13,721 bases of DNA from Candidatus Fermentibacterota bacterium (GTDB lineage: Bacteria; JAFGKV01): contig JAUXFG010000101.1 of NCBI GenBank assembly GCA_030620115.1, positions 1 to 13,721 of the forward strand, in the 5' to 3' direction. Both the position numbers and the translations under genes were made by a program. Below, in pieces: positions 4,260-13,721 of this stretch (positions are counted from its first letter, which is position 1; each line of letters opens with the position of its first letter). The notes beneath the pieces are model-generated. The model was given only the letters and a program-made list of their open reading frames with translations, had not been told where the DNA came from and did not search any database.

Positions 4260-5732
4260 ATGAGAAAGAATGAATCAGGCACGCGCGTTATGGTTCTCAT
4301 GATGGCCTGTGTATTACTCTTGGGTCTTGCAGCGGCAAGCGCTGAAGAGGGCAAGATTCCGATCACGACTTCGTCCGAGAAGGCCTTGGAGCTCTATCTG
4401 CAAGGTCGCGAACTCCAGGACAACCTTCGCCTCCAGGAATCATTACGATATCTTCGCGAAGCTGTTTCGGTCGATCCCTTTTTTGCTCTGGCATATCTGG
4501 GCCTTTCGCGGGCCGAACCCACGGTGTCAGGTTTCTTTGATACCTACAACATCGCCAGAGCACTGGTGGATAGTGTTTCCAAGGGCGAACAGCTTATGAT
4601 CCGGGGATTCGAGGCCGGGGTCAACTCAGATCCGGTCAAGCAGAGGGGTTTCTACTCGAAGCTGACCGCACGATTCCCCAAAGATGAACGTGCGCATACG
4701 CTTCTGGGTAATCACTACTTTGGACAGCAGGAGTACCAACTCGCAATCAGGTCATATGATCACGCAATTGCAGTCGATCCTCAGTTTCCACCACCGTACA
4801 ATCAGTTGGGCTACGCCCATCGTTTCTTGGGCGACTACGCGAATTCGGAAACAGCTTTCAAGAAATACATCGAACTGATTCCTGATGATCCGAACCCATA
4901 TGACAGCTACGCCGAGCTTCTCCTGAAAATGGGGAATTTCGACCAGTCGATCGAATACTACCAGAGAGCCCTCGCAGTGAGCTCTCACTTCGTGGCATCC
5001 CACGTGGGCATTGCCACTAACCTGAATTTTATAGGCAAACACGCGCAAGCAAGGACACGGCTCCGCGAACTCTATGACATGGCTCGAAATGATGGCGAGC
5101 GACGTGCCGCCATATTCGGCATAGCAGTCTCCTACGCCGATGACGGGGAATTGGACAAGGCGCTCCAAGAAATCGACAAGCAGTACATCCTGGCCGAGAA
5201 TAACGATGATACTCCCTCCATGGCCGGCGACCTGGTGCTCATGGGGAATATCCTGCTCGAAATGGGAAAGCCGGATGAGGCGTTGATGAAGTATGACAAA
5301 TCAATGAAGCTCATGAAAGGGTCCGAACTTGCGAAAGAGGTGATCGATAACGCCATCAGAGGGCATGTTTACAATTCGGGATGTGTTGCAGTGGCAAAAG
5401 GAGATCTGGAGACTGCGAAAGAGAAGGCAGTGGAATACGAGGAACAGGTGAAAGCTCTCCAAATTCCACTTCAGATACGCCGATCGCACGGGCTTCATGG
5501 GCTGATCGCTTTGGCAGAGGAGAACTACGATATCGCTCTGGACGAATTTCGTCAGGCCAATCAACAAAATCCGTACAATCTCTATCGGGTGGCCTTGGCG
5601 TTCCACGGCAAAGGGAACAACGAGAAGGCCCAGGAATGGTGCCGGATGGCGGCTGATTTCAACGCACTCAACAACTTGAACTATGCTTTCATGCGGAAGA
5701 AGGCACGAGATATGTTGGGCTCCATGCAGTGA
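4260..5732 (+). CDS. Exported tetratricopeptide-repeat protein
   Basis: A 490-aa protein. Residues 1-28 are a signal peptide (MRKNESGTRV, then a hydrophobic core, ending AAASA before EEGK), so the mature protein is probably periplasmic or outer-membrane associated. The rest is largely helical TPR. Clear units include about 145-178 (AHTLLGNHYFGQQEYQLAIRSYDHAI with VDP), 180-210 (QLGYAHRFLGDYANSETAFKKYIEL), 213-243 and 325-352 (VLMGNILLEMGKPDEALMKYDKS). Weaker units are near 41-75, 370-400 and 412-440. There is no attached catalytic domain, unlike family members in which similar TPR regions follow a protein kinase or a DNA-binding domain. TPRs form protein-binding superhelices, so a scaffold or assembly role in the envelope is likely, but no partner can be named. 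It is transcribed away from the phospholipase-D-like gene, and a strong hairpin follows 42 nt after the stop. Confidence 0.87.
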   Translation: MRKNESGTRVMVLMMACVLLLGLAAASAEEGKIPITTSSEKALELYLQGRELQDNLRLQESLRYLREAVSVDPFFALAYLGLSRAEPTVSGFFDTYNIARALVDSVSKGEQLMIRGFEAGVNSDPVKQRGFYSKLTARFPKDERAHTLLGNHYFGQQEYQLAIRSYDHAIAVDPQFPPPYNQLGYAHRFLGDYANSETAFKKYIELIPDDPNPYDSYAELLLKMGNFDQSIEYYQRALAVSSHFVASHVGIATNLNFIGKHAQARTRLRELYDMARNDGERRAAIFGIAVSYADDGELDKALQEIDKQYILAENNDDTPSMAGDLVLMGNILLEMGKPDEALMKYDKSMKLMKGSELAKEVIDNAIRGHVYNSGCVAVAKGDLETAKEKAVEYEEQVKALQIPLQIRRSHGLHGLIALAEENYDIALDEFRQANQQNPYNLYRVALAFHGKGNNEKAQEWCRMAADFNALNNLNYAFMRKKARDMLGSMQ

Positions 5733-9446: not shown

Positions 9447-9484
9447 TAGGGGTTGATGGTTCAGGGGTTCACGGGTTCAGAGTT
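9447..9484 (+). repeat. Short degenerate tandem repeat, GGGTTCA-type
   Basis: Successive units of 7-8 bp read GGTTGAT, GGTTCAG, GGGTTCAC and GGGTTCAG, then degrade into AGTTGCAG. It lies in the non-coding gap between the histidine kinase and the gene ending at 9546. The rest of that gap (9379-9545) shows nothing I can support. Confidence 0.6.
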
Positions 9485-9545
9485 GCAGACTTACGAAGAA
9501 AGCCAACAGATAAATCGTGAATGCGGGGAATCAGCCCAGCACCTA

Positions 9546-10425
9546 CTAATCACGGGTCGAATCATCGTTCTTGAGTGAGAATAGATCGAAGATGTTGGTG
9601 GTCTTGCAGTACATGTGTTCGAGGCGAGTTCGGTAGGGAGCGAGGGAAGCCTCTATCTCAGTTGGAAGACCATCCTGCCACGGAATACGTGCGGGATTCC
9701 TTTCCAAGACATTGATCTCTGATTGCAACCGTTCACGCAATTGCGCCGCGTGCAAGGAGCCCACACCTGCTGAGGATATGGCCTTGAGCTGGTTTTTCAG
9801 CAATGCAACCACATATGTTTGGTATCGACCGGTCGAGGGCTCTTCCCGAAACGCCGAGCCATGTCCGAAAATCCGAGTATCTGAACTCCCATCCGCAACG
9901 ATAATCATGTCTTCTGTCCCGTCTGCGGGCGAGTATCCAAGCCAGCTGTGGTAGACGATTGTATGGATATAGAAGTACTCCCCTGGTCCCATTTCGGCTT
10001 CCATCAAACTCTGGTTGCGAAGCTTGATGTAGTCACCAATGAGGGGCAGAATGCCCGTGGCTGCCTTTATTGTCCTCAGCGTATGGCCTATCGCTTGCTT
10101 GCCGTTTTCCGATTCATCCTTGATGATGATAGCAAACGTTTCCGCCATTCGACGCTGCAGAGGAACCAGTGATTCGCGAACAGATAGGAATCTCTGCACG
10201 CGTGGGGCAGGAATGGCTCCGTCGGGCTGGGGCACGAAATCGGTGATCCCGCCATACGCATCCTCCAGCTCTGTCTGGCTCTGTTGCACCTCTTGGAACC
10301 TATTGACCGTGCTCCTGACGCAGAGAAAGCCGCCCCCTAACACAAGGCTTCCTGCCAGAAGCACGAGCCCACAGCCAATGGCCAATGCCGCAGCCCAGAA
10401 GCCAACTGGATGTCTTTCTCGCCAT
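9546..10425 (-). CDS. Membrane-anchored protein of unknown function, frame broken by a 7-bp duplication
   Basis: The natural start appears to be ATG 10425, 13 nt after the permease stop, with AAGGCGG upstream. It encodes MARKTSSWLLGCGIG and then hits an exact GCCAATG duplication (10374-10387) that shifts the frame, giving a 41-residue product. Removing one copy joins it seamlessly to the downstream frame (CGLVLLAGSLVLGGGF and onward) and gives 290 aa. As the sequence stands, the downstream frame is open only from TTG 10385 (279 aa, weak start). The protein has one N-terminal membrane helix (about 10-34 of the restored form) and then a soluble, mostly helical domain. A conserved-looking motif, FVPQPDG (restored 61-67), precedes RVQRFLSVR (73-81). 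I recall similar uncharacterised proteins with this F-x-P-x-x-D-G ... FL-x-VR pattern in Gemmatimonadota and related phyla, but no function. Coupling to the permease suggests a related membrane role. A sequencing error is possible. Confidence 0.75.
10374..10387 (+). repeat. Exact 7-bp tandem duplication in the start region of the membrane-anchored protein gene
   Basis: GCCAATG is repeated twice head to tail. Seven is not a multiple of three, so the duplication shifts the frame between the plausible ATG start and the rest of the gene. With one copy removed, the reading is continuous through a typical membrane anchor. Confidence 0.9.
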
Positions 10426-10438
10426 CAGATGCCGCCTT

Positions 10439-11200
10439 TCAGGAATAGGTCACATAGAGGAGACGAATAAGAGTAAAAGCAACCACGATCAGAAAGAAAG
10501 CACGGACAAACCGTGCCTCTTTCCGAATGACCAGACGAGATCCTGCTGCGGCTCCTGCTATCTCACACACCCCCATGAGCAAGCCAGCCGCAAGAACAAC
10601 CTTCCCGCCAATGGCAAAAAGCACGAGAGCGACGATATTGCTTGTGAAATTGAGAATCTTCGTATGAGCCGCAGCAATTCTGAAATCGTAGCCAAGGAGG
10701 AGTACGAAAGCCAAGGTCCAGAAGGATCCCGTGCCTGGGCCAAAGAAGCCATCATAGAAACCGATGGCAAGCCCTGCGATTGTATAGAATGCATGACTTG
10801 ATACCGATGTTTGGCGTGCAGTTACTCCAAGTCTTGGAGAAAGCATTGTGTAGATGAAGACAATCGCCAGCAGGAGAGGAATTATGCTCGCCAGAACTGA
10901 CGCAGGCATGCATTGCACAAGCACTGTTCCGGTTGCCGCCCCCACTGCCGTGCAGAATATGCCGTACAGGGTCTCGCGAAACACCACCAGTCCGCTTCTT
11001 GTGTAGTTGATGGATGCGGTAAGGCTACCGAAACTCGATTGCAGTTTGTTCGTTCCCAGTGCAAGATGAGGCGGGAATCCTACCCATAGCAATGCCGGTA
11101 CGGTGATGATGCCACCTCCACCAGCGATGGAATCAACGAATCCTGCGAGGAAACCAGCTGCTGCAAGGAGAAGATAGGATGTAGAAGAGAGGCTGTTCAT
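10439..11200 (-). CDS. TauE/SafE-family permease, YfcA-like
   Basis: A 253-aa integral membrane protein from ATG 11200 (MNSLSSTSYLLLAAAGFLAG), preceded by GAGTGGTG. An upstream in-frame GTG at 11290 would add 30 residues of poor character. The family signature is clear. The first repeat contains GFVDSIAGGGGIITVPALL and ALGTNKLQSSFGS, and the second half contains GFYDGFFGPGTGSFW and AAAHTKILNFTSN, the internal duplication typical of DUF81/TauE. The wording is closest to the YfcA subgroup. Members export or import small anions such as sulfite, sulfoacetate or related organosulfur compounds, but the substrate here cannot be told. There are about eight hydrophobic segments, full length. The next gene starts 13 nt after the stop, so the two are probably co-transcribed. 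It is divergent from the protease. Confidence 0.92.
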   Translation of the reverse strand: MNSLSSTSYLLLAAAGFLAGFVDSIAGGGGIITVPALLWVGFPPHLALGTNKLQSSFGSLTASINYTRSGLVVFRETLYGIFCTAVGAATGTVLVQCMPASVLASIIPLLLAIVFIYTMLSPRLGVTARQTSVSSHAFYTIAGLAIGFYDGFFGPGTGSFWTLAFVLLLGYDFRIAAAHTKILNFTSNIVALVLFAIGGKVVLAAGLLMGVCEIAGAAAGSRLVIRKEARFVRAFFLIVVAFTLIRLLYVTYS

Positions 11201-11277
11201 CGAGTTCACCACTCCATGCACGATATCCAACGCGATTTCCAATATGATGGCCAATGTACGAGACCAACCAATTGATG

Positions 11278-11306
11278 ATAATCCCCGCACACGCTCGAAA
11301 CGTCAA
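11278..11306 (-). promoter_or_regulatory. Possible promoter for the permease gene
   Basis: Reading on the minus strand, TTGACG (11306-11301) is followed after 17 nt by GATTAT (11283-11278). This gives five of six -35 matches and four of six -10 matches to the sigma-70 consensus, about 75 nt upstream of ATG 11200. The match is modest. Confidence 0.3.
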
Positions 11307-11561: not shown

Positions 11562-11651
11562 GATTCGTATCAGATTCCACGTCACACTCCCCACTAGATG
11601 GCGAACCTGATTCGGAGCACTTCATGCGACTTTGCCTTTCCACAATTCGTT

Positions 11652-11691
11652 GGCCCGGCCCATCGCCGTACAGGTGCGGGGTCTCCGGGCC
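11652..11691 (+). other. Stem-loop in the protease mRNA leader
   Basis: GGCCCGG (11652-11658) pairs with CCGGGCC (11685-11691). Inside, CCC and CGCC can pair with GGTG and GGGG, giving an extended GC-rich stem. No T tract follows, so it is not an intrinsic terminator. It could affect mRNA stability. It resembles no riboswitch I know. Confidence 0.35.
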
Positions 11692-11730
11692 GCATCCTCC
11701 CTCCCCACTCTTCCTCACAGGATCCCAGCC

Positions 11731-11738
11731 AAAGGAGA
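11731..11738 (+). promoter_or_regulatory. Ribosome binding site of the protease gene
   Basis: AAAGGAGA ends 4 nt before the ATG at 11743. It fixes the start, which is followed at once by a signal peptide. Confidence 0.85.
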
Positions 11739-11742
11739 CACC

Positions 11743-13721
11743 ATGATCCGAGTCAAGCACACCCCTTGCTTGTCCCCACTCGCAATGATCCTCTCCATGC
11801 TGCTTCTGGCGGTAACCCTCTCACCCGTTGCACACGCATCCAGCCCCATGGAGCGCGTGGTCTTTGCGCCGGTGCAGGAAGGATTCACCACCACAGGCGA
11901 AGACCTGCTTCCTTATGCATCAGGCAGAGTGCTGGTGAAGTTTACACCCACGGGATTAGGAGAATCCCGCCTGGGGACACGAATCATGCGGGCACAGAGA
12001 ATGGCCCCTGTAACAGGGCTTTCCTCCGTGGATGCCTTGTGCAGTGGAATCGGCGCACAAAGCATTTCCAGGCTGTACGATGAACGGAAACATGTTGCCT
12101 TGGCGGCACGCCTGGGAGTAGACCGATGGTTCATGGTCGAATTCGAATCACCCTCTGATCCCGTCTCTGTTGCGGCGGAATTCGCTCTGGATCCCCATGT
12201 GGAATCAGCGTGCCCGGACTGGCGCGCATTCCCGGCCGTTATCCCCAATGACCCACTGCATTCAATGCATTGGGGACACAATAATACTGCCCAGATGCTC
12301 TCGTATGACTGGGCCACCCATAGCCATGAAAACGGAACGCCGGTGGGCACGGTTGGCTTCGACGCCAAGGCTGAGGCAGCATGGGATGCGAGCCAGGGGT
12401 ACGGGAATTCCGGGATCATTATCGCGATTCTTGACAGCGGTGTTGACAATGATCATCCGGATCTTCGGCAGGTGACCGGATACGATTACGGCGACAATGA
12501 CAGTGATCCTGATGATGATAGCTCGCAGCCCGGTCACGGGACTGCCTGCGCTGGAATCGCCGCAGCCATGGCCGATAATGGCCTTGGGTCGGCAGGCATT
12601 GCGGGCGACTGTAGTATCATGCCCCTCAAAGTCGCCAATAGCAGTGGCGATATGTACTTCTCCGCTATCCAAAACGCCTTGTATTATGCAGCGGATAACG
12701 GCGCCGACGTGGCAAGCATGAGCCTGGGGGCCGCCATTTCCAGCGACCCTTCCACGGACGATGCGCTTCTCTACGCATACAATGCGGGAGTCATCCTTGT
12801 GGCGGCAACCGGCAATGAAAACGCCAGCACCATCAGCTACCCAGCGGTGAATCAATATGTGATGGGCATTGGCGCTGCTTCACCCTGCGGTGAACGGAAA
12901 CGGAGCAGTAGCAGCAGCTCCGAGGTGAATTCTGGCGTGAATACCGATCCCAACGGGTATACATGTGATGGGGAGCGATGGTGGGGGTCCAACTATGGGT
13001 CCAGTACCCAGGACGCGGCTGGCGCGGTCGCCGTTATTGCGCCGACTATCCTTCCGACCACCGATATTGGAGGAAGCGGTGGGTATGATGCGAGCGACTA
13101 CTCCAAATGGTTCAACGGTACATCCTGCGCGACGCCTTATGTGGCGGGGATCTGCGCACTCATCAAGGCTGCGAATTCGTCATATACGCCGGCACAGATA
13201 CGGCAGCGCGTGGTGGATACTGCGGTGGATGTGGTGAGCGTTGAGTCAGGTACGGGTTGGGATCGCTACAGCGGCTATGGGATGGTTGATGCATCGGCGG
13301 CTGTCGGTGGTTCGTCGACCAACTATGCGAGTGTTCCGTACAGCACGGACTTTGAAACAGGCTCGTTGGATCAGTATTGGGTCACGAACTCTACCGGTGA
13401 CGGGCGGATCCGTATCCTGAGCACGAACACGCCGCATGGCGGCTCGTATCACTTGACTATGGACGACGCCACCAGTGGGGGATTCTCGCAGAACGAGGCA
13501 TGGCTACACCTTGATCTATCAGGAGAAAGCCAGGTGGAGCTAGGTTTCTGGTGGAAGGAGTTCGGAGACGAGACGCACACACAAGATGGCGTGTACTTCT
13601 CGAGCAATGGCGGCGGCAGCTTCACGAAAGTATATGACCTGAATGGGAGCAGCTATACGAACAACACATGGAATGAGTTCACGTTGGATGTGGATGCACT
13701 GGCCTCGTCACACGGGTTGAG
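11743..13721 (+). CDS. Secreted subtilisin-family (S8) serine protease, 3' end cut by the window
   Basis: The reading frame is open from ATG 11743 through the right edge (659 codons seen). Residues 1-32 are a signal peptide (core around AMILSMLLLAVTL, cleavage near AHA). Residues about 55-165 look like a propeptide of the fervidolysin/thermitase type (SGRVLVKF ... WFMVEF ... DPHVESACPDW). The catalytic domain spans about 175-525. It has Asp231 in ILDSGVD, His265 in GHGTACAG, oxyanion Asn358 in ATGNEN and Ser461 in NGTSCATPYVAG, so the triad is complete. An insert at about 381-416, with a Ser run and flanking Cys382 and Cys408, sits between the oxyanion region and the Ser motif. After 530 comes a beta-rich jelly-roll-like region (YSTDFETGSLDQYW ... 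TWNEFTLDV), as found after the catalytic domain in large extracellular subtilases. More C-terminal domains, such as a sorting signal, may lie beyond the window. Confidence 0.95.
   Translation, partial: MIRVKHTPCLSPLAMILSMLLLAVTLSPVAHASSPMERVVFAPVQEGFTTTGEDLLPYASGRVLVKFTPTGLGESRLGTRIMRAQRMAPVTGLSSVDALCSGIGAQSISRLYDERKHVALAARLGVDRWFMVEFESPSDPVSVAAEFALDPHVESACPDWRAFPAVIPNDPLHSMHWGHNNTAQMLSYDWATHSHENGTPVGTVGFDAKAEAAWDASQGYGNSGIIIAILDSGVDNDHPDLRQVTGYDYGDNDSDPDDDSSQPGHGTACAGIAAAMADNGLGSAGIAGDCSIMPLKVANSSGDMYFSAIQNALYYAADNGADVASMSLGAAISSDPSTDDALLYAYNAGVILVAATGNENASTISYPAVNQYVMGIGAASPCGERKRSSSSSSEVNSGVNTDPNGYTCDGERWWGSNYGSSTQDAAGAVAVIAPTILPTTDIGGSGGYDASDYSKWFNGTSCATPYVAGICALIKAANSSYTPAQIRQRVVDTAVDVVSVESGTGWDRYSGYGMVDASAAVGGSSTNYASVPYSTDFETGSLDQYWVTNSTGDGRIRILSTNTPHGGSYHLTMDDATSGGFSQNEAWLHLDLSGESQVELGFWWKEFGDETHTQDGVYFSSNGGGSFTKVYDLNGSSYTNNTWNEFTLDVDALASSHGL

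Follow-up and report, generated by a model that had tools for sequence, protein, structure and literature searches.

Introduction

Among long simple repeats, heptanucleotides form the commonest class in most prokaryotes, a prevalence for which slippage of the polymerase has been put forward as the cause (Mrazek et al., 2007, as summarized in PMC4679880). Two further kinds of described system are close to the locus reported here. In contingency loci, which undergo phase variation by slipped-strand mispairing, the reading frame of a gene depends on how many tandem repeat units are present at its 5' end. Short tandem-duplication frameshift mutations consist of an exact head-to-tail copy of a length that is not a multiple of three. 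The window analyzed here, a stretch of 13,721 nucleotides that forms contig JAUXFG010000101.1 of an uncultured Candidatus Fermentibacterota bacterium (assembly GCA_030620115.1), contains a duplicated heptamer at the start of a gene for a membrane-anchored protein. We consider it probable that this duplication is a small frameshift mutation, recent or polymorphic, which most likely arose by replication slippage.

Results

A tandem heptamer breaks the reading frame close to the start codon

At positions 10374 to 10387 GCCAATG occurs twice, head to tail (GCCAATGGCCAATG), and this is the sole exact match to the doubled heptamer in the window. Read on the minus strand the repeat is CATTGGC twice and lies within the codons of a conserved GCGIGCG block, so that, as in tandem-duplication frameshifts, an exact direct repeat with a unit not divisible by three is located in a coding region. 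The features of the locus are the following:

10374-10387, minus strand: exact tandem 7-bp duplication, seen in the sequence, with three relatives showing a gap of exactly 7 nt in its place
10300-10425, minus strand: 41-aa open reading frame that begins at ATG 10425 behind a Shine-Dalgarno-like site (AAAGGCGG) and leaves the frame after 15 conserved residues of the N-terminus
9546-10385, minus strand: rest of the coding sequence, in the other frame and 279 aa long if begun at TTG 10385, with a membrane anchor and a mostly helical domain of an uncharacterized family (low-confidence model)
10439-11290, minus strand: intact upstream permease of the TauE/SafE family, matched over the entire PF01925 profile and probably starting at ATG 11200

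As had been described in the original prediction, translation from ATG 10425 reads MARKTSSWLLGCGIG and then leaves the frame. This happens after 15 codons, at the repeat; translation continues as GHWLWARASGRKPCVRGRLSLRQEHGQ and ends at a stop at 10300. The remaining gene is open from TTG 10385 to 9546 in a frame that is +1 relative to ATG 10425 (offset of 40 nt), and no start codon was found in this downstream frame between TTG 10385 and the preceding stop. Deletion of one copy does yield the 290 aa that had been calculated, 15 residues from one frame and 275 from the other. The description of the Shine-Dalgarno sequence at ATG 10425 as good is justified, with a ribosome-site energy of -7.1 kcal/mol versus -2.4 kcal/mol for TTG 10385 and -5.3 to -11.4 kcal/mol for the starts of relatives.

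The ATG is indeed placed 13 nt past the stop of the permease gene (10441-10439), which matches the full TauE/SafE profile. The proposed coupling of the two genes does not hold as a conserved feature, as each of the four other genomes tested has its permease matches and its homologues of the broken gene on different contigs. The product of the gene is membrane-anchored and probably helical, and belongs to an uncharacterized family: searches gave no match in Pfam, only insignificant matches in NCBIfam (for the homologues) and PHROGs, and no relative in the PDB, and the structure model is mostly helical with a low-confidence mean pLDDT of 43.7. Elsewhere in the window, an open reading frame of at least 696 aa (11632-13719) runs off the contig end and by eye resembles a secreted subtilisin-like serine protease.

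Homologues possess an unbroken N-terminus of one-copy length

Protein searches detected homologues with 33-34% identity in G001 and G002, which are of the same family, three homologues in G027 and one in G030, as well as weaker homologues in five further genomes. Two relatives with names were recovered from a scan of genome contigs, JALOPK010000003.1 (Ca. Eisenbacteria MAG) and JAFGKV010000023.1 (Ca. Fermentibacteria MAG), and no match was obtained in viral, phage and plasmid collections. The gene has no second copy in this genome, and no second genome of the same species was found in the collection searched, in which the phylum is represented by three genomes.

The N-termini are unbroken in nine homologues from seven other genomes (G001, G002, G027 with three, G030, G174, G283 and G146; examples are MAGSAWKWAAGCGIGC, MGSAKNWLIGCGVGCG and MASSTTRKWLVGCGLGCG). 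All nine share one layout, in which M or V is followed by a short basic or polar leader and by a Gly/Cys block (G-C-G-x-G-C or a variant) that opens the membrane stretch. Their starts, which mostly have good ribosome sites, lie 7-12 codons earlier than TTG 10385 and most have basic residues. In the window the leader is encoded by the ATG frame, which also covers the Gly/Cys block up to its middle; the second half of the block and all that follows are encoded by the other frame. When a simple profile built from the nine homologues was employed, the final ten residues read in the ATG frame (SSWLLGCGIG) scored 23.8, higher than each of 419,603 ten-residue background peptides, which came from a 276-kb genome sample that excluded the window and was translated in six frames; the corresponding place in the TTG frame, read upstream, scored 4.4. 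In an unsupervised MAFFT alignment of DNA, each of the three relatives compared was gapped by exactly 7 nt at the repeat, and residues 2-278 of the downstream frame aligned with homologues and showed no further stop or frame break.

Because the homologues are unbroken, the ATG frame matches their N-terminus and a 7-nt gap is found in the three relatives, these comparisons show that one copy is ancestral and that the insertion belongs to this genome or to this assembly. The comparison with related genomes suggested in the original prediction has thus found the single-copy form in the relatives, and the repeat does disrupt the start of a real gene. It is notable because the frames on its two sides match successive parts of one conserved N-terminus, and not because of the heptamer itself.

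Seven-base tandem repeats are abundant in the intergenic DNA of this genome

Exact tandem dimers were counted in 978 kb of this genome (G000, contigs C1-C80; L021-L040 and L089-L148). Long open reading frames (708 kb) contained 43 exact 7-bp dimers, about 1 per 16 kb, versus 87 from a third-order Markov model, so that a heptamer dimer by itself is unremarkable by chance. Outside long open reading frames (227 kb), 105 exact 7-bp dimers were present versus 10.5 expected, and 47 8-bp dimers versus 2.5 expected. Tandem repeats of 7 bp are thus roughly ten times more frequent than expected in intergenic DNA and scarcer than expected in coding DNA. The intergenic repeats are families of drifting words such as CTGAACG, TGAACCC, TTCGATG, GCCATTR and ATTCCCC (for example at L026:1098-1166 and L027:6516-6542). 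A 105-kb sample of G001 showed a weak excess of 7-bp dimers (7 versus 2.1), and the sample of G002, which was smaller than that of G001, showed none.

A second exact GCCAATGGCCAATG in the 4.1-Mb genome is found on contig C108, where it is apparently intergenic. This copy (L001 1501-1524) and positions 10364-10387 of the window are alike just beyond the repeat (CATTGGCCATTGGCYGYRGGCYCG) and all their differences are transitions, a resemblance that is probably due to chance. Downstream of the frameshifted gene, at 9447-9490, a low-complexity segment (GGGGTTGATGGTTCAGGGGTTCACGGGTTCAGAG) resembles the drifting heptamer repeats of the genome.

Probable slippage and the alternative explanations for the frame break

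In the ancestral gene, translation would have begun at ATG 10425 with a leader containing Lys/Arg, followed by the GCGIGCG block that opens a transmembrane stretch, and would have given about 290 residues. Seven bases of the GCGIGCG block would then have been copied in tandem, most likely by replication slippage, and ribosomes starting at ATG 10425 would now be out of frame after 15 codons and stop after 41, with a product that should lack the membrane anchor. The full-length protein would be lost, and at most a trimmed product might be made from the weak TTG 10385 or from a later start; if initiated at TTG 10385 it would keep most of the hydrophobic stretch and miss the basic leader. As the downstream frame is unspoiled, the lesion is probably recent or present in only part of the population. 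Slippage had been offered as one of the possible origins and is the one rated likeliest here; a slippage event in a 7-nt register fits because the intergenic DNA of the genome is so rich in 7-bp repeats, although on inspection the one-copy sequence shows almost no microhomology 7 nt apart.

The alternative that deserves most weight, although we judge it unlikely, is that the second copy is an artefact of assembly or consensus calling and that the real genome has one copy. The genome is a draft of 296 contigs, the gene is otherwise unspoiled, and the assembly contains another apparent one-nucleotide frame break. This break was detected when proteins of relatives were compared with 978 kb of this genome, a small sample in which a frame change occurred in 1 of 65 matched genes, compared with none of 75 in the reverse comparison. 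The affected gene (G000:C63, L131 about 5340-5346) encodes a ClpP-like serine protease of the SDH type (PF01972), is 73-75% identical to its counterpart in G001, is one nucleotide longer and changes frame about 83 codons in. This comparison shows that frame breaks are not confined to the heptamer-bearing gene, and the one other break in the draft leaves room for assembly errors, although a single case among the 65 other gene pairs speaks against an artefact. (A census of frame breaks by joining open reading frames across every tandem repeat was dropped, as it was swamped by 4-5-bp repeats and by adjacent genes.) Ordinary reads are much longer than a perfect repeat of 14 bp, and assembly errors are typically indels of one base in homopolymers, both of which count against misassembly. 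Because a 7-bp duplication is atypical as an assembly error, a mutation is preferred over an artefact.

If the duplication is real, the gene might still not be broken in effect, with a working protein of 279 or fewer residues made from TTG 10385 or GTG 10343. When read from TTG 10385 the frame is uninterrupted, includes the greater part of the hydrophobic anchor and can be aligned with the homologues nearly throughout; yet its ribosome site is poor, its product would lack the basic residues present in most of the earlier-starting leaders of homologues, and the abandoned residues of the ATG frame are still conserved, so that we regard this explanation as improbable. Restoration of the full protein by programmed +1 ribosomal frameshifting at the repeat would agree with the direction of the frame change, but no known +1 shift site was recognized at the junction on inspection, folding of the junction RNA is no more stable than that of shuffled sequence (z +1.6) and the homologues need no shift; of all the readings we give this one the least credence. 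Hardly more credible is the phase-variable switch contained in the original prediction, in which heptamer number would change at high frequency and turn the gene on and off. A non-triplet tandem heptamer near the start of a membrane-anchored protein, in a genome that makes many 7-bp repeats and carries related GCCATTR repeats elsewhere, is what such a switch might look like. Against this, only two units are present whereas several are needed for high-frequency slippage, the homologues have no repeat units at the site and the aligned relatives are single-copy, and the 7-bp repeats of this genome lie between genes and are underrepresented within them. The caveat expressed in the prediction itself, that two units are few for a classical contingency locus, proved to be justified, and the broader idea that slippage in a 7-nt register acts genome-wide, also hits coding genes and toggles this membrane protein in the population through gain and loss of heptamers appears just as far-fetched. 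A small slippage mutation remains the preferred explanation.

Discussion

An annotation that calls this gene from TTG 10385 should be viewed with caution, as it would describe the trimmed remainder of a frameshifted gene. The locus also points to a genome from a lineage of which few members have been sampled; tandem repeats of 7 and 8 bp pervade the intergenic DNA of this genome.

In its intergenic DNA, with an approximately ten-fold enrichment of 7-bp repeats, this genome resembles the prokaryotes with heptanucleotide long simple sequence repeats portrayed in PMC4679880 (citing Mrazek et al., 2007), among them the TAACTGA repeats of Beggiatoaceae. Unlike the repeats portrayed there, the repeat in the window is coding, consists of two units and has a word that is one of many in the genome. 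It resembles contingency loci in that the number of tandem units at the 5' end decides the reading frame, but it has two units only and none extra in relatives. With short tandem-duplication frameshift mutations it shares the exact head-to-tail copy, the non-triplet length and the loss of frame, together with an intact remainder of the gene and intact homologues elsewhere; no notable difference from this class is evident, the 7-nt unit being found in a genome rich in intergenic 7-bp repeats. With one copy in the relatives, the locus looks like an ordinary small slippage mutation, a known kind of event, or with lower probability like an assembly artefact, rather than a genetic switch.
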